A stretch of DNA of 64,000 nt from Antedon mediterranea (Eukaryota; Echinodermata; Crinoidea; Comatulida; Antedonidae): assembly GCF_964355755.1 (NCBI RefSeq), contig NC_092673.1:17365001-17429000 (forward strand), read 5' to 3'. This document shows positions 1 to 61,210 of this stretch, one piece after another. A program made the position numbers and the translations under genes. The stretch's first letter is position 1. Every line of letters begins with the position of its first letter. The notes beneath the pieces were generated by a model, which worked only from the letters and a program-made list of their open reading frames with translations, was not told the origin of the DNA and ran no database searches.

Positions 1-387
1 ATTTGCGCCATATTCAAGAGTTGATGTAATTATCAAGAGGGGCTTATAGGCATAGCCTAGCCTCGACTCCGGACCCAGCATTGCTGAGCTCCGGAAACAA
101 GTAAACAAGTAAGTAAGTAAACAAGTATACAATAGCGTGACCGGGCGTGTTGGTGTTTACGCGTTTTCACGTAGGATAGTTTAATAATATTCCTATATTT
201 AACTTGTTTCTGGTAAAACAAATAAATGTTAATGACATTTAACATTTTTTCCTATTAATAACATGTATCTTATACTAATTTATATCATAAAAACAATACT
301 TAATTTACCGGGCGTAGAGTAGTACACGGGCAATGGTAAAGAATAGGCCGTGCTGAGTAACGATTCGTTGACTTTTGGTCTTGCTGT
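1..387. other. Noncoding, AT-rich
   Basis: No supported gene. A short run of GTAAGTAA-like repeats occurs near 100-125. The only open frame (57-245, minus) has no family resemblance, no splice context and low-complexity start, so it is not annotated. Confidence 0.5.
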
Positions 388-1035
388 GTTAGGCCTTTTT
401 TGTGAACTAACTTAGCATGTTAGTAAATAATTGTCTGTAAAAGTGAATGTACACTAGTTTGTTAATAAATATGTATTATAAAATAGTTTACAATTGCAAA
501 ACTATTATCATAATTCTATTTAATGTGACATGTATAATATCTATTAAATCAAGTCTTATTTAGTATGTATACATCCGCCCTTATGAGGGCGGGCATCACT
601 TTCTGGAGCTCTCTGTTACAAATTTCTCATGCAAAAATCGCGGAATACTCATTCTTGTGATATATATTCTCTGGTAATCTATAGAATAATAGAAATTTGT
701 AACAAAGCGTGGATGCCCGCCCTCATGAGGGCGGATGTATACAGACTAAAGAAGACTTGATTTGACAGATATTATGTCATATTAAATAGAATTATGATAA
801 TATATATAAATTTGATTTCTTTTAATTTAATTTATATTGTTAAATGTTTATGTCTCATCTTGTATTTTTGTGAGGGTCCGTAATGGTTAGCTTCGGCTGG
901 ATGGACCACCCTCATAAAATATTGTTGAAATAAAAATAAATAAAACATTTTATAAAACATATTTAATAACAAACTAGTGTACATTCACTTCTACAGAAAA
1001 TTATTAAATTAGTTCACAAAGAAAGACCGAACCAC
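388..1035. mobile_element. Foldback (long inverted repeat) element
   Basis: Two arms of roughly 200 bp are imperfect reverse complements. The left arm (about 390-590) reads through GTGAACTAAC, GTGAATGTACACTAGTTTG and CATCCGCCC. The right arm (about 720-1030) reads the complements in reverse order. The loop (590-715) itself has inner complementary stretches (TTACAAATTTCT and AGAAATTTGTAA). No protein is encoded. It is probably a nonautonomous foldback or MITE element. The right arm is interrupted by a LINE-like tail at 803-945. Confidence 0.7.
803..945 (+). mobile_element. LINE 3'-end fragment inside a foldback arm
   Basis: This segment has no partner in the left arm, so it is an insertion into the right arm. 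It contains a short imperfect hairpin around GAGGGTCC...GGACCACCCTC and ends in an A-rich (AAATAAATAA) tail, as the 3' ends of CR1/L2-type LINEs do. Only the tail is present and the family is uncertain. Confidence 0.55.
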
Positions 1036-1741
1036 AATAACAAACATATATTATCCAAATAGCATTTAATATGATGTATTGTTAGCATGTAGTTGAACAT
1101 TTGTTATCATAGAAACATTACCGGTGGTCCAGGCTTAGATTAGTTTAACCGTCACAAAAAGTTATATACATCCTGACTTATGGTGGCGCCCTACCACATG
1201 GACAATATTACAGACAGGGAAAACTGCGGATTACTCATTCTTCTGATATTCTTTAGTAAAACAAAAATAACATGCGTTTTTAGGGGATTTCAGGATACCA
1301 TGTTAATTAAAGAATCGTACCTCCTGAATGGAGGATCGTATTTAAAACCGCACTATAAAGATTGTCTGACCACCTGTTGAAATACATCCCATATGAATCA
1401 AAGAAGAATACATTCTGGTCAAGAGGGCCACATAAGCATTAATGCTTTAAGTCTCTAAAGGTAAATCCAGGACGAGGTAGTTGATGACAATCACTATCAT
1501 CAGGCCTAAATATTGGTTTAAGAGGATATCAGTCACCTTTAATTTTGGTATTCGTATGGCACTCCACAATCTATCTGCCATGCCATGCTTTTGATTATTT
1601 TGAACTAGGGTTAGGTAGTGCCATTGTTAACCCACTCACAGTTCATCCTCATTATCACTTTGGTAATAGTAGTGTACAATGACAGAGTATTGACTAAGTT
1701 CATTTTATTATCACTCTGTGTAAATATAACCAAAATGGTAA
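1036..1741. other. Noncoding, nothing recognised
   Basis: Only two short open frames overlap here (1180-1380 plus; 1611-1817 minus). Neither shows a domain, and the second runs into the adjacent MITE. No RNA gene or repeat array is visible. Confidence 0.4.
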
Positions 1742-1743
1742 TA

Positions 1744-1929
1744 CAGTCAACTCTCCCAATACCGGACTCTCTGAAAACCAGAAACTCTCCCAATACCAGA
1801 CTTTTTTTGAGGACCAAAAGGTCCCAAATTTATTTTTACCATTAAAAACACATTCCGAATACCAGACTTTCCGGAAAACCAGACTTATTTGGCCGGCCCA
1901 AAGGTGTCCGGTATTGGGAGAGTTGACTG
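1744..1929. mobile_element. pogo/Tigger-like MITE, copy 1
   Basis: The 186-bp element has inverted ends, CAGTCAACTCTCCCAATACC on the left and its complement on the right, flanked by TA dinucleotides. Ends beginning CAGT with an ACTCTC box and a TA target duplication are typical of pogo/Tigger (Tc1-mariner) elements. There is no transposase. Confidence 0.8.
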
Positions 1930-1990
1930 TAGTACAGAGAGTTATAAACTGCTGTGTGTTCTATTTATTATCTTTGTTTAACATTAGAAT

Positions 1991-2268
1991 ACAATGTTAA
2001 TATTAAATCTATGGTAAAGATTATCTATAAACAATTGTATAACAGGAAATCAATAAACAAAACAAACAAATCATTAATAACAATGTTAATATTAAATCTG
2101 TGGTAAAGATTATCTATAAACAATTGTATAACAGGAACTCAATAATCAAAACAAACAAATCATTAATATTAATAACAATGTTAATATTAAATCTGTGGTA
2201 AAGATTATCTATAAACAATTGTATAACAGGAACTCAATAAACAAAACAAACAAATCATTAATAACAAT
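1991..2268 (+). repeat. Three ~90-bp tandem copies
   Basis: Three direct copies start at about 1991, 2080 and 2175. Each carries ACAATGTTAATATTAAATCT followed by GGTAAAGATTATCTATAAAC. The same trio recurs in the duplicated unit at 3237-3514. Confidence 0.85.
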
Positions 2269-2379
2269 TTCTACCCTGGTTTTCTGTATAAGTGTTATAA
2301 TGAACTTGTTATCATATAAATTGTCCGACCAGAGCAATATGTAAAAAAATTTATTTAGATTATAAAGATAATAAATGTT

Positions 2380-2520
2380 TGCTAAAGTCTTATGACTGAA
2401 CCAGACCAGATCAAATGTGAGATAACAAATTACCTACAGTCTTTAATATGACTATGTATAGTCCCCTGAACCAGACCAGATAAAATGTGAGATAACAAAT
2501 TACCTATCAGAGGTCCATGT
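2380..2520 (+). repeat. CCAGACCAGAT repeat family
   Basis: Two direct ~65-bp copies contain CCAGACCAGAT, AAATGTGAGATAACAAATTACC and GTCTTTAATATGACTAT. The family also occurs in the second 1,246-bp unit and again at 44745-44905, so it is dispersed. No coding capacity. Confidence 0.6.
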
Positions 2521-2989
2521 AGCCCAACAGAAGATTAACCAAAAATGAAATTTCAAATAAAACCAATTTTGACAAATATAGTCAGGGCCGTACACAGGAT
2601 TTTATTTGAGTGGATGCGGATTAATATATTTTGGACCATTTTCATAATATTGAGTGAAGACGATAAGACCCTATAAAATGTGGACCTTTTGCAATTTGGC
2701 GGGGTGGGGGGGGGGGGCTGCGTACGACCCTGATAGTGACCCATGAAACCCAAAAAAAGAGAGCACATCAACCAGATCTAACATGGGATACCACATAAGA
2801 CTAAATTAAAGTATTCATTGTGAATACCTGTTTTAACACCCACTTAATAGCGTATGTGGACTTGTATCGGAATGGATGACACAATTGGGGGGGAGGGGGG
2901 GATGTCATGATAGTGACCCATGAAACCCAAAAAAGAGAGCACATCAACCAGATCTAACATGGGATACCACATAAGACTAAATTAAGGTA

Positions 2990-3175
2990 CAGTCAACTCT
3001 CCCAATACCGGACTCTCTGAAAACCAGAAACTCTCCCAATACCAGACTTTTTTTGAGGACCAAAAGGTCCCAAATTTATTTTTACCATTAAAAACACATT
3101 CCGAATACCAGACTTTCCGGAAAACCAGACTTATTTGGCCGGCCCAAAGGTGTCCGGTATTGGGAGAGTTGACTG
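2990..3175. mobile_element. pogo/Tigger-like MITE, copy 2
   Basis: Same element as at 1744-1929, carried along by the 1,246-bp tandem duplication. It sits immediately at the junction between the two units. Confidence 0.8.
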
Positions 3176-4235
3176 TAGTACAGAGAGTTATAAACTGCTG
3201 TGTGTTCTATTTATTATCTTTGTTTAACATTAGAATACAATGTTAATATTAAATCTATGGTAAAGATTATCTATAAACAATTGTATAACAGGAAATCAAT
3301 AAACAAAACAAACAAATCATTAATAACAATGTTAATATTAAATCTGTGGTAAAGATTATCTATAAACAATTGTATAACAGGAACTCAATAATCAAAACAA
3401 ACAAATCATTAATATTAATAACAATGTTAATATTAAATCTGTGGTAAAGATTATCTATAAACAATTGTATAACAGGAACTCAATAAACAAAACAAACAAA
3501 TCATTAATAACAATTTCTACCCTGGTTTTCTGTATAAGTGTTATAATGAACTTGTTATCATATAAATTGTCCGACCAGAGCAATATGTAAAAAAATTTAT
3601 TTAGATTATAAAGATAATAAATGTTTGCTAAAGTCTTATGACTGAACCAGACCAGATCAAATGTGAGATAACAAATTACCTACAGTCTTTAATATGACTA
3701 TGTATAGTCCCCTGAACCAGACCAGATAAAATGTGAGATAACAAATTACCTATCAGAGGTCCATGTAGCCCAACAGAAGATTAACCAAAAATGAAATTTC
3801 AAATAAAACCAATTTTGACAAATATAGTCAGGGCCGTACACAGGATTTTATTTGAGTGGATGCGGATTAATATATTTTGGACCATTTTCATAATATTGAG
3901 TGAAGACGATAAGACCCTATAAAATGTGGACCTTTTGCAATTTGGCGGGGTGGGGGGGGGGGGCTGCGTACGACCCTGATAGTGACCCATGAAACCCAAA
4001 AAAAGAGAGCACATCAACCAGATCTAACATGGGATACCACATAAGACTAAATTAAAGTATTCATTGTGAATACCTGTTTTAACACCCACTTAATAGCGTA
4101 TGTGGACTTGTATCGGAATGGATGACACAATTGGGGGGGAGGGGGGGATGTCATGATAGTGACCCATGAAACCCAAAAAAGAGAGCACATCAACCAGATC
4201 TAACATGGGATACCACATAAGACTAAATTAAGGTA

Positions 4236-5074
4236 TTGTGAATACCTGTTTTAACACCCACTTAGTGTATGTGTATCAGAATGAATGACACAATTGCAGC
4301 AAATGCATAACTAACCAATTAGTTAATGATATGACTAGAAACCTACTTAAACAAATTAATTTCAAAAAAATAAAAGTTACAGTTATTTGGCTAAAAAATA
4401 TAATTTGTTATAAACTAGAAATCTAGCTAGTCAACACCAAAGTAAAAGATTAGGTCTCTTTAAAATACAGTGTGTGGTATTATGTTTGGACACAAGAAAA
4501 CCAAGTTTTTATGGAAAATCTTTATAGCCTCAATACTTCTGGGGAATTAGAAGGTGATCCATGCAAACTTCAGAAGTTTAGAAGAAAATAAAGTGCAAAG
4601 GCTTTGAGTAAGAAATAGAAAAATGTGAAACTAGAGAAATAAAGGAGGATAAATTATGTTTTTTAATAATTTTTCTGTATATAACATACTCAATGTTTGA
4701 CAATTTCATAGCTAAAATAATTTTTGTCAGAGATTTTTCTTATGAAAAAAAGTAATTGTTCAGTAGGAGTTGATCAGGAATTGTGTTTCATTTCGGAATC
4801 CTTTTAGCCATGTTTGTTTTTGTACTTGAGAAAAATGTTATGCAGATTGTCAACAAGCTTACATTGATAAAAACAAGGGGCCTGATTATTATTAATGACC
4901 GTTGTGTGTTTGTGTTTACTGTTTGCCTGTTGCCCCTAGATACAGCCAAACAAATTGTATTAAAATCATTATCGTCAGTTTAATATTAACTTTGTACTGT
5001 ATTTAAACAAAAGATAAAGTAAAAATCATCTGATTGTTTGAAACATGTATAAAGGTTATAGAAATGTTTGGTTA
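4236..5074. other. Noncoding, nothing recognised
   Basis: AT-rich sequence without a supported gene or repeat. The open frame at 4783-4983 (plus) is hydrophobic but has no family resemblance, and I do not call it a gene. Confidence 0.4.
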
Positions 5075-5690
5075 TTACTTTATGATCCATTTATTAAAAG
5101 ACTAAAATGCACTGCTTCCCCAGGGCTGTTAGTCAGGGTATTTGTGTGGGTATTGTACTACCTTACTTTATGATCCATTTATTAATAGACTAAAATGCAC
5201 TGCCTCCCCAGGGCTGTTAGTCAGGGTATTTGTGTGGGTATTGTACTACCTTACTTTATGATCCATTTATTAATAGACTAAAATGCACTGCTTCCTAGCA
5301 GGGCTGTTAGTCAGGGTATTTGTGTGGGTATTGTACTACCTTACTTTATGATCCATTTATTAATAGACTAAAATGCACTGCTTCCCCAAGGCTGTTGGTC
5401 AGAGTATTTGTGTGGGTATTGTACTACCTTACTTTATGATCCATTTATTAATAGACTAAAATGCACTGCTTCCCCAGGGCTGTTAGTCAGGGTATTTGTG
5501 TGGGGTATTGTACTACCTTACTTTATGATCCATTTATTAATAAACTAAAATGCACTGCTTTCCCAGGGCTGTTAGTCAGGGTATTTGTGTGGGGTATTGT
5601 ACTACCTTACTTTATGATCCATTTATTAATAGACTAAAATCCACTGCTTCCCCAGGGCTGTTAGTCAGGGTATTTGTGTGGGGTATGCAG
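5075..5690 (+). repeat. 88/89-bp minisatellite, about 7 copies
   Basis: Direct repeats begin TTACTTTATGATCCATTTAT and end with GTGGGTATTGTACTACC. Copies differ by single bases and by a GGG/GGGG change that sets the period at 88 or 89. The same array, in the same flanking context, has about 11 copies at 58699-59665. Confidence 0.95.
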
Positions 5691-6682
5691 TAATACGATA
5701 GTTTAGTTTAGTTCTGTAGTTATAAGGCTTTATATTTCACATGACAGAAGATTGTAAAAATCTGTTGAATCAGTAAGTTTGTCTAACCTGCATAACATAA
5801 TGTCACACTCATTTTGGTAGAAATACACCAGGAGTAGATCCAGGATTTAGAGGGGAGGGGTAATAATAGACTGGGGAAAGAAGCCTACAGAAAGAAGCCT
5901 AGGCCCCATGGTTCTAATCAAAATGTTAAAATGTCTTCTTTCGCCATGCTTTTATAAAGTCTGCCACCATTTAATTTTTATGATTTCGGACCTCAAAAAA
6001 TGGCAGTGCAAAATAACACTTTTGGTTTTTAATAATAAATGAACAATAAATGATATAATTATTAAATAAAGAATTGTTTATCTCATAATAAATATATTTA
6101 ATTCAAAATAAAGTTCTGTTCTTATTGTAATATCCATTTTTTAAAATCCATAATTGTTATTTAAAAATATTTAGTATAAAGCTGGTAGACTGCTCACATT
6201 AAAATACAGACAGTAGTTTTTGTTTCATTATGCAAAATATGATTTTTTTTGAATTAATAATTTATAATTAGGTGATACATTTAATATCTATAGCTTCTAG
6301 TGCATTCTCCATACAAATACCAATTTCTGATAAATCAAATGAATGTGATGTGAAGTAGGATTGGCTTTCCCATGGATATCTTTTTTCCTTCTTGATATAC
6401 CTGAGTACCAATAATTAACCAATATATAGGCCAATAAATAATATTATCAATACTATTATCACAACATAAAATGGCATAGTAGGCCTCTATTAACCAAACA
6501 GAGCCTCCTAATTAGCCTTAATATAAATTGTTTTTTATACCTACAGTAAACAATTCCTGGTAATCAAAATACACATTATTATCCTAAAGCACAAAATATT
6601 ATTAACAAATATATCCATGACACTTTGTTAATTTTATTTAATCAGCAAAGCATCTACTATGAATTAAAAATATACATAGTTA

Positions 6683-13320: not shown

Positions 13321-14323
13321 GACAATGATGATTAGGTTTAAAAAAGGTGGTACAAAACATTTTTTGGGGTTTGAGAGGCTTTCCATTGGTACACCAAAGA
13401 GCCGTAAAAAATGAATTCATAAAAAATTCAATATATGTTATGTACCCAATATATCGTTTATTATTGTTCTGAAAAAATGGTAAATAATAATGATATACAT
13501 TCAAAAAATTAATAAATTAACATATTTCTCGTTTTTGGCATGAAATTTAACTGAAAATATTTGAATCTAATATTAAATTATTATTATAATATTCTAGAAT
13601 GTGTTTTGACATAACGTTAGTAAAAAGATAAATATATTGGCACATGCCGTTTCATACATATAATGCTAATTGATCGATCATCTACAGTAATATTTGGGCA
13701 ACTATTAATCTTTGTTATGGATGATTTTACCAATATACAGAAACAATTTTATTGCATTACCGGTAAATATTTTTTCTTTACTGTAGTTTAAAATGTATGT
13801 ACAGTATAGTGATTCATTTGATCATGTTTGAAAGAGTTGGTGTCAGTTTATTTCAAAATGTTAGCATAACTCAATGTCGATGACCTATTAATATAGTACA
13901 CCCTCTCTCCCCTGAAATTGACACTTAACAAGTATATATAACTTTACTTATTTAATTTAACTTTACAATCAATTGTGTTAATAATTAATGCATTTTAAGT
14001 TAAAGGCCAAAACTCGAATAGCGAAAGCTGATTTGTTTTATGTCTTTTTTGTCATAATTGTTAATGAAGTTTTTATATTATATTATGAGAGTGACAAATA
14101 AAGTATTTACACAAATATATATTTTGGCCTTATGTGTACAATATAAATTTTAAAAAAGATTTTCCAAGTTTAAACACTCAAATCGCTAGCATTACAAAGA
14201 ATCTACAATTTCTTTTTAAAGAATTGTAGCCAATTTTTAAAAAATGTCCTAAATACTGTAGGGTAGTTTTTGCAGTTTAATTTAAGCATGACAGATTTGC
14301 TCCTGTATACTGAAATCCATTAA

Positions 14324-14549
14324 AGATATATTGTCACCCGGAAAATATATATTTTTCTTGAATATGCAATTTTAATGTCATAATAGTTATTCACTTTGAC
14401 CAAAAATTGGAGCGAAAATAAAACTATTTACCTGAAAATAATGCAAACAATAGTCAAATTATCAGACAATGGGTTGAAGCTGCAGAATTCCCTATTAAAA
14501 GTGTGATTTATTAATCTTCATTTTTCATGTTTTTGGGGGACAATATATC
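14324..14549. mobile_element. TTAA MITE, right end merged into a minisatellite
   Basis: The left end AGATATATTGTCACCC follows a TTAA (14320-14323). The right end GGGGGACAATATATC is complementary to it. A relative with both TTAA flanks lies at 35718-36061. Here the right TTAA is lost and the end is reiterated as part of a 37-bp minisatellite. Confidence 0.75.
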
Positions 14550-15541
14550 CAGTACCATGTGGACCCCTGTTGGGGGACAATATATCCAGTACCATGTGGA
14601 CCCCTGTTGGGGGACAATATATATCCAGTACCATGTGGACCCCTGTTGGGGGACAATATATCCAGTACCATGTGGATCCCTGTTGGGGGACAATATATCC
14701 AGTACCATGTGGATCCCTGTTGGGGGACAATATATCCAGTACTATGTGGACCCCTGTTGGGGGACAATATATCCAGTACCATGTGGACCCCTGTTGGGGG
14801 ACAATATATCCAGTACTATGTGGACCCCTGTGGGGGGACAATATATCCAGTACCATGTGTACCCCTGTTGGGGGACAATATATCCAGTACCATGTGGACC
14901 CCTGTTGGGGGACAATATATCCAGTACCATGTGGATCCCTGTGGGGGGACAATATATCCAGTACCATGTGTACCCCTGTTGGGGGACAATATATCCAGTA
15001 CCATGTGGACCCCTGTTGGGGGACAATATATCCAGTACCATGTGGACCCCTGTGGGGGGACAATATATCCAGTACCATGTGTACCCCTGTTGGGGGACAA
15101 TATATCCAGTACCATGTGGACCCCTGTTGGGGGACAATATATCCAGTACCATGTGTACCCCTGTTGGGGGACAATATATCCAGTACCATGTGGACCCCTG
15201 TTGGGGGACAATATATCCAGTACCATGTGGACCCCTGTTGGGGGACAATATATCCAGTACCATGTGGACCCCTGTTGGGGGACAATATATCCAGTACCAT
15301 GTGGACCCCTGTTGGGGGACAATATATCCAGTACCATGTGGACCCCTGTTGGGGGACAATATATCCAGTACCATGTGGACCCCTGTTGGGGGACAATATA
15401 TCCAGTACCATGTGGACCCCTGTTGGGGGACAATATATCCAGTACCATGTGGACCCCTGTTGGGGGACAATATATCCAGTACCATGTGGACCCCTGTTGG
15501 GGGACAATATATCCAGTACAGTGTACCATGTGGACCCCTGT
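14535..15541 (+). repeat. 37-bp minisatellite, about 27 copies
   Basis: The unit consists of GGGGGACAATATATC (the MITE end) plus CAGTACCATGTGGACCCCTGTT (split here as flank). Because 37 is not a multiple of three and no frame of the unit has a stop, long frames are open in all plus frames and several minus frames. These apparent 237-342-residue proteins are artefacts. The matching place in U4 (57099-57135) has a single unit, so it preserves the pre-expansion state. Confidence 0.97.
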
Positions 15542-51330: not shown

Positions 51331-52132
51331 GTTCTAGAATGTGTTTTGACATAATTTTAGTAAAAAGATAAATATATTGCCACATATGGTGTTTCATACA
51401 TATGCTAATTTATCGATTATCGAAAAAAAAAATTGAAACGCTATCCGGTGGACTAACATAAAAAAGAGAATATTAACTACAGACTTGGGGCAAGTCGTCT
51501 AATATTTGGGCAACTAATCTTTGTTATATGGATGATTTTACCAGTGTACAGAAACAATTTATATTGCATTAAATATTTTTTCTTTAGTTTAAAATGTATG
51601 TCAGTATAGCGATTCATTTGTTCATGTTTGAAAGAGTTGGTGTCAGTTTATTTCAAAATGGTAGCATAAATCAATGTCGATGACCTATTACAATATAGTA
51701 CACTCTCCCTCCCCTGAAATTGACACTTAACAAGTATATAACTTTACTTATTCAATTTAATTTTACAATCAATTGTGTCAATAATTAATGCATTTTAAGT
51801 TAAAGGCCAAAACTTGAATAGGGAAAGCTGATTTGTTTTGGTCTTTTTTGTCATAATTGTTAATGAAGTTTTTATTTTATATTTTTATATTATGAGAGTG
51901 ACAAATAAAGTATTTACACAAATATATATATTTTGGCCTTATGTGTACAATATAAATATAAAAAAAGATATTCTAAGTTTAAACACTCTAGTCGCTAGCA
52001 TTACAACGAATATACAATTTATTTTTAATGAATTGTAAGGCAATTTAAAAAAAAATGTCCTAAATACTGTAGGGTAGTTTTTGCAGTTTAATAAGCATGA
52101 CAGATTTGCTCCTGTATACTGAAATCCATTAA

Positions 52133-52147
52133 AGTGCTAGTGCCACA
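52133..52147 (+). repeat. Kolobok left terminal inverted repeat
   Basis: 15 bp, AGTGCTAGTGCCACA, directly after the TTAA duplication. Identical to the complement of 56864-56878. Confidence 0.93.
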
Positions 52148-52308
52148 CTTTCGACAAATACGACATTTACTATTATCAGTATCAAGAATAATATATGTAG
52201 ATACTGTGTTAAATTGAGTTTCAATAATAAATTGTTATATATATGAAAAAAAAAGCAATATGTGTGTCGTTATTTGGTCACGAAATGTTACCTTTCGACA
52301 TTTGTATG

Positions 52309-52316
52309 TGACGTCA
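52309..52316. promoter_or_regulatory. CRE-type palindrome near the left-hand gene start
   Basis: TGACGTCA lies 99 bp upstream of the plus-strand start codon, with a TTATAA word at about 52367. The same octamer lies beyond the transposase start at 56710-56717. CREB/ATF factors bind this sequence; a role here is inferred. Confidence 0.4.
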
Positions 52317-52414
52317 CAGCCAGAACACCGACGATCGCGAGGAGGAACTAACCTGCATCTTGCGCCTTATAACACACCCCGCGGCGATCACAACAAGCTT
52401 ACTGAATATTTGTT

Positions 52415-53462
52415 ATGGATTCCGAAAGCGATTTAGAAAGTGTTTCATCAGATAGACCTAGTAGTAGTAGTTCATCATCAAGTGATGAGGAAAATGGTAC
52501 TGGCCTTATAATACCATATAATTTCGAACCACGTTTTGAGGAACATGAATTACAAGACATTGATGAAGAAGCCCAAGGTGAAGATGTTGACATGATGGCT
52601 GCACGCCTGGATAATTTAGAATGGTAGGTGTTCCCCTTGTGGTTGTTGTAGTGAAGCGTCTGCTTGATTGGGCTAGGCCTAATTAATCAATCGAAGCTAG
52701 AGCTACCTCAGTGTTTCTAAATTCTAAATATACAATCGGTTTTTTTTTTTCAAATTTTGTGAGATGCCATACGTTAATATAAAGTCCCCATCGTAATTTG
52801 TTTGATGATTATTAGATGGGTCGGATTTGGGACGGTGGTTTAATAATAGGCTACTCCTTGGGCTTGGGTTTGGTTATAATAATAGATGGACTAGGCCTAA
52901 AGTATTAATATTAATATTCTGGTCATAGTTCAAATGGGCATTTGAATTTCACTTGCTTGAGTGACTGCTGATATGATCAACTAATTATAATCATAATAAT
53001 TAGTTTTATAATGACTAAATACATGTTTTCATCTTGTTCAGGTGTTCCTGTGAACATTGCCAAATCATGGGCTCAGGGGAAGAGTGCATCTGCTGCAAGG
53101 AGTGCGAAAACACAAGTGCTAAACTTGAAGACAATGTCAATCTGTTCAACAATGATGCTCCATTCTCCTGCATCACAAATCATCCAGGTTTCAAGTCTGT
53201 TGCTCTTGACCCTTGGGTGCTGGAAGTAGCATGGCTTTCGTATAAGCAACACTATGATAAGAAAGTTATCTATAACGGACCAAAAAACAAAAAGTACCGT
53301 CACATATCGTACAGACAGTATGCCCGATGGATACATGGATATGTCGGAAAAAATATCCGTATAGTGCTTCCGTCTTGTGTTGTCTCTTGCATAAGAGCAC
53401 ATTTCCCACCACCTGGAGATGACCCGGTGTTTACAGGATTTAAATTACCTGACCTAAATTAA
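52415..53462 (+). CDS. P2X7 'ballast'-like cysteine domain protein carried by Kolobok
   Basis: Two exons, 52415-52623 and 53042-53462, join in phase 2 and give a 209-residue protein. An in-frame TGA 12 nt upstream fixes the start. Residues 1-69 are acidic and Ser-rich (a run of Ser near 30). From W70 comes a cysteine cluster C71-x-C73-x2-C76 ... C85-x-C87-C88-x2-C91, then HPGFKSVALDPWVLEVAW, KYRHISYRQYARWIHGY and IRIVLPSCVVSCIRAHFP. This set is characteristic of the intracellular zinc-binding region of vertebrate P2X7 receptors and of stand-alone invertebrate 'P2X7-like' proteins. No membrane segment is present, so it is not a channel. AATAAA follows at 53530. The frame is intact. Its job in the transposon is unknown; DNA or transposase binding is a guess. 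Confidence 0.9.
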
Positions 53463-53737
53463 AACAGCCATAGCAGCATTTTAATTTTCTTATACTATTT
53501 AGTATTAGTTTAGTAATTTTTGGAAATTAAATAAAGTAATAATTTATACAATTTGTAACTCATTTTGATTTTATTGCTTCTCTCATTCATATACATCTCC
53601 AATACATTGTTATTGGGGAAAAAATGAAATAGTCTGAAAATACAGTACATTGTGAATATTTCAACAATTTTATTATGTCTACAATAATATGCTGTGTTCA
53701 ATTCATTTATATGATTAATAAACATGGTGTCAAGTTA

Positions 53738-56537
53738 TTACTGGTTTTTAAACCGGCTTGTATGTTGGGCAACTGCAGCACTTTTTTCAGGTCTTTCAAA
53801 TGCTGCGCACAATGATGGTGGTATGGTCTCTGTAAATGCATCTAGATTTGGTTCCATAACAATCTCAAGAAGACTCTTGAATAACTCATCAACATAATTA
53901 TATGTACATTCTGTTAAAAGTTTTTTAACAATGTAACCCCCTTTCTTGTACTTAGGAAATGATATTACGTATTGCTTTTCTCCAGCCTTATTTACCATTT
54001 GTTCTCTGGTACTGTTCTCATTATAGTGAAGAGCAGCTATGAAAAGTCGACTCTTCATTCCACTATATGAAAAGTGGAACATTTTAGGAGCGAAATGATT
54101 AATAAGGCTATGGTACCCTTCCACTGATGACGTTTGCCCATGAGGTGAAGAATTGCGAATGTCCTTCACCAACATTTTGGTTTCAACAAATTTTTGTAAG
54201 GCATCACAAGCTTCAGTATCAGCAGTCAACCACTTTGTTAACCGTTGGTCTGAAGGAGACATTACCGGATGGGCACATTCCGTATATGGTTCAGGATGTC
54301 CAGTATGAAGATTTTGTACATGTCTTACCACAGACTTCCACTTTGCTTCAATGATATCTTTTTCATCAATGTTGGTGGACATTACACACCAGTAATAATG
54401 GTTAGAAATAGATTTTTGCCAATTACCTAAAAGGTTACACGATTTTTTTGTTGATATGGCCTTGATCTTTTTCTTAATACTTTTTGCAATGTGCCAGCAG
54501 TCAAAATAATGCTTAATGTCTGGAAAATTATCCCTTAAATATTTTTGTAGTTGTCTATGTCTATCGGAAACAATTGTACTTATATTTACTTTGAAATCTT
54601 TAAAGACATCCAATGTTTTTTGTAGACCCTTAAGTTCCATATGATAAGATGATTTAACATCACTACTCTGAACTAATTCAACATTCAAAATCTTATTTTC
54701 GGTCAAGTCAACTGATGTGTATGAACCATATTTTGCACTGTGGCCCATACTGTCACAGCGTCCATCTACTCCAATAGCAGCGTCCATCTACTCCAATAGA
54801 AATATCCTTGCCCTGTAATTCAGCAAAGTGCTTATCCCTTTTAGAAAACCAATTATTCCTTACAACTCTGTGTAAGAAATTTTGTTGGTGACGGAAAAAA
54901 GTACGTTTACTAATGGCGCTCACATTTATACTTTTTAGCGCTCTTAAAAATTGTGTGGGTGTTGAGCCAGAAAAAAGAATAGCCCCACTTAGTAGAATGT
55001 TACCCATTGGGGTACCTCTAGCTTCTGGCTGACTTTTCCACTCGCGGTTAGTGTGGCAACATAAGCATCTTATGTTTGCAATAAGCATGCTTCCCTTGTT
55101 ACGACAACATACTTGAACTTTACTGGAAAAACAGGAAAGGCATATAGAAAGTAGCATCAGTAGGTGATTGTGAAAAACAATGTATTTTGGCTGTCTATGT
55201 GCATCCCCATTAAATCCTTTCATCTCATCATCTTCCATCTCTGTATCCTCACCATCTGAAACCGATACATCCTCTTCCGGTCGATAATCTGAATCGCTAT
55301 CATCTTCTGTCGACTCATCAAAATCTTCATCATCTTCATCAGACGATTGTTCTTTGTATGTTGGTTTGGCTTTTTTGGGTGCCACGACTTTAGCTTTGCT
55401 CATTTTTCTTCGCCGAACACGTTTTCTTTGCTTTCGTGTCTGTGTGCCTCTGGACACCATAAGAGGCTTATCGCATACACTTGCGAGCTCCTGTTCATCC
55501 TCTTCCTCATCCTCTGTTCCAGTAATAAGCTCCCTGATCACTCCCGCCTTTTCTCTTTTAACAAATGCTGACCTGTTGGAATGAATATTAATACTATTAA
55601 TAATAAATATCAGACAAACCTAAACATTTTTTCTTTTATTTATTGAATCTATTACACTAACCTCTGTGCTGTACACTCTTTGGCCACCTGACCACCATCG
55701 TCGGATGTCTCCCTCACAACATGTATTGTTGGTACCGCTGTTTTGGCATTCAGTAAAAAAGCCTAAAAGTAGTGAGGAAACCGTTGTCTAATTAATATTA
55801 AGGGCAAAATAACGTAAGCAATATAATTATAATATAGTTGTTAGTTCCCACTTACACCGACAGGACATTCTCCTACTGAGCATAACAGTGTAGGCATTGA
55901 CTAACCTCCATCGTGTTTGTACAGCATTCAGTAGTACTAATTAGGCCTGGCTAGGCTAGCCCTTATCCCATTATTATTAATGTAATAAGCCAAATACATA
56001 ACAACTAGGTTAGGCCTAGTTGAGTTATCTGTGTGGTGTAGGCAAAACTGTTATTACTATTACTTATTAATTACGTTAAGTTTATTTAAAGATAAACCAA
56101 CATAAAGTAAATACTATACATATATATCAGGCGGAGCAACTGTACTGTATGTATGTACAGTAGTTTTAATGTTACTGCAAATTATGTGCCGGCCCGCCTA
56201 GAAGCTAGGCTTGGCCCAGCGGGCCCAGCAGGCCTAACAATAGCGACGGCGAACGTATTTTATGCAGTTTTTGTTGAAGGTAAAATATTAAAAGTAAATT
56301 CATCTAATTAACAAATACTTACTTTGTAGCTAGACCAGCTTTGAATTGACCCATGTTTGTAAATGAATCGTCTGAAAAATGCTTAAAACAGAGCACTGAT
56401 CGAGCTGTGGGTTTCCACTTATCGCGTTTTGTACGTACAAATCTTGTCCATTGCCTGGCGATGAAACTGTCCTTTGGCCACCGAAACAATAAGTTATTTT
56501 CATGATCACAATTCGCAGCAACACAGCGAGAAGGCAT
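53738..56537 (-). pseudogene. Kolobok transposase (THAP + DDE), frameshifted
   Basis: Minus-strand exons 56537-56323, 55762-55662 and 55572-53738. Exon 1 encodes a THAP zinc finger (C5, C10, C50, H53, W30). Exon 2 supplies the AVPTI end of THAP. Exon 3 has a basic and acidic Ser/Asp/Glu tract, a Cys-rich stretch (CLSCFSSKVQVCC...CLCC), then the catalytic core: VDGRCDSMGHSAKYG (first Asp), SDRH (second Asp), CWHIAK, and SSVEGYHS (probable Glu). A 22-bp direct duplication at 54756-54799 shifts the frame right at the first catalytic Asp. The exon 1-2 junction is also out of frame by one base at a T6 run, fitting a lost T or an assembly error. Without these changes the protein would be about 710 residues. 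The 3' end converges on the ballast-like gene. Confidence 0.9.
56323..56537 (-). CDS. THAP-domain exon of the Kolobok transposase
   Basis: THAP fingers (C2CH) bind transposon ends in P-element and Kolobok transposases. The exon starts MPSRCVAANCDHE and runs through RSVLCFKHFSDDSF to a GTAAGT donor (minus strand) at 56322. The start is the only Met before C5. This exon itself is intact. Confidence 0.88.
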
Positions 56538-56709
56538 ATTGATTTATTATAATAGATAAATAAAAAAGTAGCTGACAATAATAATAGTTGAAAATAACAA
56601 TTAGTACCAGTAGAAAGCAGTATACAGTATATATTATTAGTAGTAAACCAGCGTCTCATGCATGCACGTGTGTTGTTTTAAAAGGCGGAAGTAGAATGTC
56701 TTCTGCCTG

Positions 56710-56717
56710 TGACGTCA
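56710..56717. promoter_or_regulatory. CRE-type palindrome near the transposase start
   Basis: TGACGTCA lies about 175 bp upstream of the transposase Met (minus strand), mirroring the one at 52309-52316. Confidence 0.4.
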
Positions 56718-56863
56718 CGCTTATAAAGTACGAGGGCATATTAACGTTCCTAATTAAGAGGTGATTACGGCCATACCGTTAAAAGTAGGTCAATGCAAAT
56801 TTCGGTCAAGATTTATAGACATTAAGTCTACCCAAAAAATCATTAACATCTTAATTTAAAGTC

Positions 56864-56878
56864 TGTGGCACTAGCACT
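56864..56878 (-). repeat. Kolobok right terminal inverted repeat
   Basis: 15 bp, complement of the left end, directly before the second TTAA. Confidence 0.93.
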
Positions 56879-56882
56879 TTAA

Positions 56883-59665: not shown

Positions 59666-61210
59666 TGCAGATAGTTTAGTTTAGTTCTGTAGTTATAATG
59701 CTTTATATTTCACATGACAGAAGATTGTAAAAATCTGTTGAATCAGTAAGTTTGTCTAACCTGCATAACATAATGCCACACTCATTTTGGTAGAAATACA
59801 CCAGGAGTAGATCCAGGATTTAGAGGGGACGGCTAATAATAGACTGGGGAAAGAAGCCTAGGCCCCTTGGTTCTAATCAAAATTTTAAAATGTCCTCTTT
59901 CGCCATGCTTTTATAAAGTCTCCCACCATTTAATTTTTATGATTTCGGACCTCCACATACTAAAATGGCAGTGCGAAATAACACTTTTGGTTTTTAATAG
60001 TAAATTAACAATAAATGATATCATTATTGAATAAAGAATTGTTTATCTCATAATAAATATATTTAATTCAAAATAACGTTCTGTTCTTATTATCCATTTT
60101 TTTATCCATAATTGTTATTTTAAAATATTTTGTATAAAACTGGTAGATTGCTCACAATAAAATACAAACAGTAGTTTTTGTTTCATTATGCAAAGTATGA
60201 TTTTTTTTTAATTAATAATTTATAATTAGGTGATACATTTTAATATAGCTTCTAAGTGCATTCTCCATACCAATTTATGATAAAAAAATAAATAAAATTA
60301 ATGTGATGTGAAGTAGGATTGGCCTTCCCATGGATATCTTTTTCCCTTCTTGATATACCTTACCAATAATTAACCAGTATATAGGCCAATAAATAATATT
60401 ATAAATACTATTATCACAACATAAAATGGCATAGTAGGCCTCTATTAACCAAACAGAGTCTCCTAATTACCCTTAGTATAAATTGTTTTTTATAACAATT
60501 CCTGGTAATCAAAATACACATACTATTCTGAAGCACAAAATATTATTAAGAAATATATCCACAACACTTTATTATTTTATTTAATCAGCAAAGCATCCAT
60601 TATGAATTAAAAAAATACATAGTTAAGTGATGTTTTGTTCCAAAATCAATAAATCTTATAATGTACTAGCCCAAGCAAGTACATCTGTACAATTTGCACC
60701 TCAATAATTCACCGTCAAATATGCAATTACATTTTTAAAAACATAAGAAAACGTTTAAAGTATTTGTTGCTCCTAATCTATACTATGTGTTAATGGAGAT
60801 AATTTTGACACAATTTGATCTATATACAGTATCATGCGACTTTAACCCAATGTTGTAACTCTTTACATATGGCTCTGGCTCCGCCCATAATTCGTTCGTT
60901 TACATTGGTTGAATAGGAATTATGATATCTTTCTAATATACTATCTTTGTTTATATGAAGTTTGCAAACTGTAGATAGGTAAACAAGACTTATATTTTCT
61001 ATTATAGGCTAGCACGCAAGACTGATTTAAGGAAGTCATGTGATGCACAGAAGCAGTAACAATTATAAACCCCTTATAGTCAAGTAGCGTGTTTATGTAG
61101 AAATTTTCAGTCGAACTGATTTACCAGTGGATTGAGGATTGTTTCCAGGGTAGGGTACCAACAATTCTGTTTTTCAGATTCAGTTGTAGTGTGAGTTTTT
61201 ATATTATTTT
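59665..61210 (+). repeat. Large duplicated unit U5
   Basis: Copy of U1 without the LINE: ACATAGTTAAGTGATGTTTTG at 60617-60637 is the empty insertion site. The terminal block (61005-61195) includes CGCAAGACTGATTTAAGGAAG and CAGATTCAGTTGTAGTGTGAG. No gene. Confidence 0.8.

Follow-up and report, generated by a model that had tools for sequence, protein, structure and literature searches.

The ballast-like gene at 52415-53462 of the window, by which we mean the whole stretch of 64,000 nucleotides analysed here, resides in a recently active Kolobok DNA transposon, which moves as a unit into TTAA sites with the gene, termed KolX, inside that unit. P2X7 is a drug target, and its ballast domain carries zinc and guanine-nucleotide sites. 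If this domain began as the second gene of a transposon, its original job becomes open to transposition assays, and the many animal genes annotated as stand-alone ballast genes should be re-examined as potential transposon genes. The original prediction that the domain is a normal second gene of some Kolobok elements is supported by our data, as many divergent families in the same genome carry it together with a convergent transposase.

The transposon origin of the P2X7 ballast is supported as the correct reading and was already published in 2022 (PMC9587614); new here are a well-resolved example, a census of one genome, the co-divergence of the two genes and a leader motif. Kojima & Bao (2022) described Kol0 Kolobok elements as encoding two proteins, a transposase and KolX, assigned the P2X7 ballast fold to KolX, traced P2X7 to a fusion between a P2X4-like gene and KolX and regarded Nanor as a likely domesticated KolX (PMC9587614). 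Since Kolobok lineages without KolX exist as well (PMC9587614), KolX is not a general requirement of Kolobok chemistry. Rump et al. (2020), whose text leaves transposons unmentioned, reported stand-alone ballast genes from a wide range of animals, and the tick gene models given there, with a THAP-type domain ahead of the ballast domain (PMC7016195), would fit merged Kolobok gene models.

A two-gene Kolobok element and its insertion into TTAA

The features of the element and of the related empty site are as follows, in window coordinates.

14320-14323, no strand: paralogous empty site with a single TTAA joining both flanks; base-by-base alignment over the joint gave 93% identity in 242 bp
52129-52132, no strand: left TTAA target-site duplication; second copy at 56879-56882, single TTAA at paralogous empty sites
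52133-52147, plus strand: left terminal inverted repeat AGTGCTAGTGCCACA, starting with RR as in Kolobok; perfect inverted match to 56864-56878
52133-56878, no strand: whole Kolobok element of 4,746 bp, with terminal inverted repeats, target-site duplications and near-identical copies elsewhere that break at the same ends
52415-52623, plus strand: KolX exon 1, open frame with GT donor; acidic/serine-rich leader with YNFEP
52624-53041, plus strand: KolX intron, GT...AG; EWCSCEHC restored by splicing
53042-53462, plus strand: KolX exon 2, P2X7-type ballast domain with stop at 53460-53462; PF20478 and P2X7 fold match
53738-55572, minus strand: main transposase exon with DDE core, start approximate; GVDGR, SDRH, DCWH (C/DxxH) and SSVEGYH; frameshifted in the window copy
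54756-54799, no strand: 22-bp tandem duplication, present as two units, that disrupts the transposase frame at the first catalytic-Asp motif
55662-55762, minus strand: middle transposase exon containing AVPTI, boundaries approximate
56331-56537, minus strand: first transposase exon with THAP domain (MPSRCVAANC...), PF05485 E = 2.6e-8; exon end approximate, ~56323
56864-56878, minus strand: right terminal inverted repeat TGTGGCACTAGCACT, element ending in YY; perfect 15-bp inverted repeat with the left end
56879-56882, no strand: right TTAA target-site duplication

The predicted two-exon gene with ballast motifs was confirmed by its frame, splice sites, motifs, PF20478 match and P2X7 fold. Splicing yields a frame of 630 nt (209 aa) with zero internal stops and GT/AG splice sites, in which the W-C-x-C-x2-C and E-C-x-C-C cysteines, SYRQYARWIHG and LPSCVVSCIR were each found. 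Against the Pfam family P2RX7_C (PF20478) the window KolX scored 60 bits (E = 3.7e-16; curated cut-off 23.5), and the only credible matches in the PDB were P2X7 chains, with a value of 6e-5 for the single sequence and of 6.5e-21 for a profile built from KolX pieces of the same genome. An AlphaFold2 model of exon 2, at modest confidence (pLDDT 67), points to the same fold, the best 14 structural matches of the model all being P2X7 ballast (VIA Z 7.6-11.2) and the next unrelated fold reaching 2.9. All seven alignment positions of the predicted zinc-binding cysteines are Cys in the window KolX.

The interval 52415-53462 comprises the ballast gene only, whereas the mobile unit reaches 56878 and includes the transposase, with KolX on the plus and the THAP/DDE transposase on the minus strand arranged tail-to-tail. 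The predicted location of the gene wholly between Kolobok terminal repeats and TTAA duplications was likewise recovered, the element spanning 52133-56878 with 15-bp inverted ends. KolX is intact in the window copy and the transposase is frameshifted, being split into frames of 349 aa and 288 aa. The 22-bp duplication is common only to the window copy and the copies at C4:19.09 and C4:19.35 Mb, and the transposase open frame extends over 616 aa in the copies on C5, C7, C9 and C11. Inspection of the 616-aa frame in copy L045 revealed GVDGR, SDRH, DCWH and SSVEGYH in this order, and candidate C/H residues (WCV...ECAH), as for the Kolobok zinc finger between C/DxxH and the catalytic E, were noted by eye only; a Pfam search of the transposase gave no transposase model above its cut-off. 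The element ends read AG...CT, as do those of the KolX families F4 and F5, consistent with the 5'-RR and YY-3' ends that distinguish Kolobok from piggyBac. The KolobokP lineage, by contrast, is characterised by a His-Me nuclease and by direct repeats at its termini that are ~450 or 660 bp long; no long direct repeat was found in 51500-54500, the element ends sharing only the 15-bp inverted repeat. We thus assign the window element to the Kolobok Kol0 (two-gene) type, an assignment that rests on gene content and end structure.

Searching the genome for the 15-bp ends adjoining TTAA, as the original prediction had proposed, yielded 20 occurrences compared to 0 for the reversed control. Eleven DNA-level copies of the window ballast gene family were detected, those on other chromosomes sharing 98-99% identity with mutual divergence starting exactly at the element ends. 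TTAA was present at both ends of every copy read, and on C1, C5, C7, C9 and C11 the flanks of the copies are unrelated. Genome searches with both flanks, the left query ending in and the right query starting with TTAA, revealed eight paralogous empty sites at which the two flanks overlap by exactly 4 bp, a single TTAA; one of the eight is that at 14320-14323 in the window. These empty sites indicate that the unit inserted at the window site, bringing the ballast gene along. That the copies merely reflect an assembly artefact or a recent segmental duplication, with no transposition, has a vanishingly small probability, as the heavily duplicated surroundings of the window on contig C4, the 99.9-100% identity of the copies at 17.42, 19.09 and 19.35 Mb over the compared stretches and the parts of the window flanks carried by two of these C4 copies are outweighed by the unrelated flanks and TTAA ends on the five other contigs and by the empty paralogous sites.

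The part of C4 that includes the window has been duplicated recently and more than once. For the left flank of the element at least 10 paralogous segments with 86-100% identity were observed (window 13802-14572 and other C4 stretches at 16.0-19.4 Mb), and a tandem array of ~37-bp units, matching part of the right flank of the element, adjoins the empty site at window ~14607-15462 (C4:17379607-17380462). The element copies at C4:19088952-19095996 and C4:19351127-19358171 (L070, L040, L001, L039) lie in opposite orientations and show reciprocally exchanged flanks. In both copies one flank corresponds to the window insertion site and the other to a second site, the empty form of which is found in the window at 6518-6521 and ~60472-60475. 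The exchange suggests either a ~0.26-Mb inversion by recombination between the two C4 copies or a misassembly.

KolX families across the genome

The PF20478 profile gave 83 matches at 79 loci, distributed over contigs C1-C11 of this one genome, from which a chromosome number of ~11 may be guessed. The counts of ballast loci and of KolX sequence groups, 79 and 13, are lower bounds, and some KolX families were sampled only around KolX. A match to the window transposase was located within 6 kb of 40 of the 79 loci, 38 of them in convergent orientation, compared to a mean of 0.29 and a maximum of 2 ballast loci near a transposase upon random placement. Two families, F5 and F7, had shown no transposase in the first comparison; direct reading of both revealed convergent Kolobok transposase sequence, whole or truncated, and every other KolX family examined in full likewise has Kolobok transposase sequence alongside in convergent orientation. 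Altogether, at least 13 distinct KolX sequence groups with differing intron positions were read, providing natural test material within this genome, with several groups adjoining a readable transposase.

The gene is therefore neither single-copy, given its 11 DNA-level copies and the 79 PF20478 loci, which rule out a single-copy host gene, nor absent from all other Kolobok copies, given the transposase beside every other family examined in full. A host gene that preceded the element at its site is contradicted by the paralogous sites that lack the element.

Family F5 (L024/L050 at C1:7266656-7269765 and siblings L023-L035) is 3,110 bp long with inverted repeats AGATCATGGAACATGGTATTTGATGT (26-bp inverted ends), and at least 13 copies were read. 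Nearly all of them carry common stops or frame lesions in KolX and retain the transposase C-terminus only, indicating that F5 is a non-autonomous derivative and ruling out a KolX-only element under selection. The amplification of F5 with KolX stops and a truncated transposase implies that a supply of KolX in cis is dispensable. Near both of its ends, F5 carries a first-exon-like stretch (MSTRI[AV]YD...) in inverted copies.

Three further observations concern the surroundings of these families. At L052 (C11:2564800-2571000), which belongs to KolX family F9, a long perfect inverted repeat extends beyond the likely TTAA-flanked ends (175-6194), which points to long terminal repeats or to an insertion within a palindrome. 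At C5:15231392-15246831, three Kolobok transposase-like genes occur at a 7.0-kb spacing with no PF20478 match nearby and may form a KolX-free transposase cluster, tandem or domesticated. A search of viral contigs for relatives returned one match of 27 residues, which looks like chance.

Upstream of the zinc cluster, 8 of the 13 KolX groups contain Y-x-[FLMY]-E-P, mostly with a preceding P, within a leader that is otherwise unconserved and either acidic or basic. The motif reads YNFEP in the window family and YQLEP, YAFEP, YMYEP or YLFEP in other families; the first set, amounting to 221,350 six-frame codons, gave only two other matches. A test on newly fetched loci recovered it from two further groups (YQFEP, YQYEP), with 0 antisense matches. 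It was not found in the five other groups, in which the first exons may be out of range, and a literature search, albeit not a thorough one, turned up no description of it. The motif is reminiscent of a docking peptide.

Because the copies within a family are too young, within-family dN/dS is uninformative for KolX. Between families, pS is 0.64-0.94 in most comparisons, near or at saturation, with dN values of 0.45-0.92. The purifying selection on the ballast frame raised by the original prediction is hence visible at the between-family level, where proteins are kept and silent sites saturated, so that selection has preserved the sequence of the KolX protein for a long time. In a comparison of seven families, the pairwise identities of KolX and of the transposase core were correlated (Mantel r = 0.60, exact p = 26/5040). 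Silent-site saturation with retained proteins, together with this correlated divergence, argues for KolX being a long-standing gene of the element and no recent passenger.

Possible role of KolX

We consider it fairly probable that KolX acts as an accessory protein of transposition together with the transposase, because the two genes lie side by side in a fixed orientation wherever both were read and diverge jointly. Within KolX, a zinc-stabilised ballast fold would be tethered to a disordered acidic leader bearing the docking-like Y-x-[FLMY]-E-P. More speculatively, conserved arginines of the ballast fold might bind a guanine nucleotide or the DNA backbone, and KolX would do in trans the job of the GTP-binding insertion domain inside the P element transposase. 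For the P element, GTP is needed for pairing, cleavage and strand transfer, via an almost all-helical insertion domain (PMC7776569), and a guanosine nucleotide is bound by the P2X7 ballast (PMC9859053).

Five GDP contacts of P2X7 were listed by Rump et al. (R546, H547, R574, R578 and K583; PMC7016195). In our alignment, each of the 13 KolX sequences has R546 and R578, 7 of them have H547, and none has R574 or K583; the window KolX has R546, H547 and R578 and lacks R574 and K583, and so falls short of the complete guanosine-nucleotide site of P2X7. With R574 and K583 missing and H547 variable, nucleotide binding by KolX is doubtful. The most specific form of our proposal, by which KolX would be a guanine-nucleotide-responsive subunit of the Kolobok transpososome docking via Y-x-[FLMY]-E-P, and the P2X7 ballast an exapted cofactor whose source would most likely be the short-linker subtype (CC-x3-P-x2-C) rather than that of the window, consequently has a slim chance of being right.

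KolX may instead be kept for a non-catalytic purpose, such as controlling transcription or evading host silencing, which we regard as a real if minor possibility. The combination of an acidic, low-complexity leader with a zinc fold, the arginine-rich leaders of some KolX (F2) and the role in transcription regulation proposed for zebrafish Nanor, according to Rump et al. (PMC7016195), would all be in agreement with such a purpose, but the conserved tail-to-tail pairing and the correlated divergence fit a transposase partner at least equally well, and the Pfam search, in which PF20478 was the only match, found no similarity to a silencing suppressor. It is very improbable that one element captured a host ballast gene by transduplication as a passenger without any role. 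Host-gene capture by DNA transposons does occur, and stand-alone host ballast genes were reported in many animals (PMC7016195); this explanation is nevertheless largely refuted already by the fact that many deeply diverged families show this pairing in the same convergent arrangement, by the correlation of KolX and transposase divergences and by the lack of any host-donor flanks among the sequences seen. An accessory function alongside the transposase is accordingly the reading we prefer.

Relation to P2X7 and to known transposon systems

An unrooted tree was built from 13 KolX sequences together with two P2X7 tails, which were taken from the PDB-search alignments. In it, P2X7 groups with F3 and F7, both having a short spacer between CC and the sixth Cys, and with F4 (support 90/90); alternative attachments of P2X7 were not rejected (AU p 0.43, 0.29 and 0.10). 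The tree suggested in the original prediction thus recovered a grouping of P2X7 with these families, and P2X7 may, as the topology weakly suggests, be nearest to the short-linker KolX subtype. With its long spacer, the window KolX therefore probably lies outside this subtype. A transposon history of the P2X7 tail is supported as a published conclusion (PMC9587614); our similarity data are consistent with the capture of the ballast by the receptor, with the direction unproven in the tree.

The reversed direction, in which the transposon took the domain from a P2X7 receptor, appears hardly tenable. Similarity alone fixes no direction and the position of P2X7 in the unrooted tree is not significantly resolved (AU p 0.43 for an alternative), but the receptor fusion occurs only in jawed vertebrates and ballast genes from sponges upward (PMC7016195). 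Moreover, this genome yielded two P2X genes, both of them on C3 and with no ballast match nearby, while KolX is widespread, and KolX diversity within this one genome is far above the difference between human and rat P2X7. Capture of a KolX ballast by the receptor is thus the direction that we favour.

Comparing KolX with the P2X7 ballast (PF20478; PDB 6u9v, 9e3m), both share the zinc-cysteine pattern, a helical fold and the invariant positions R546, Y550 and R578. Unlike P2X7, the window KolX comprises no receptor or membrane part and lacks the GDP contacts R574 and K583, and its linker from CC to the sixth cysteine is long, whereas it is short (CC-x-x-x-P-x-x-C) in P2X7 and F3/F7. The zebrafish Nanor and ZCD proteins (PMC7016195) resemble KolX in being short stand-alone ballast proteins with a variable N-terminus, but are treated as host genes in that study, unlike the element-borne KolX. 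The P element transposase (PMC7776569) has a THAP DNA-binding domain and DDE catalysis as well, and the C/DxxH motif is common to the P and Kolobok superfamilies (PMC9587614); the P element differs in having its GTP-binding domain within the transposase, no KolX and 8-bp target duplications (PMC7776569). With the published Kol0 elements carrying KolX (PMC9587614; Kolobok-1_XT type), the window element shares the TTAA duplication, RR...YY ends, a DDE transposase with C/DxxH and a second gene of ballast fold, and compared to these by gene content and ends it represents a new family in this genome.
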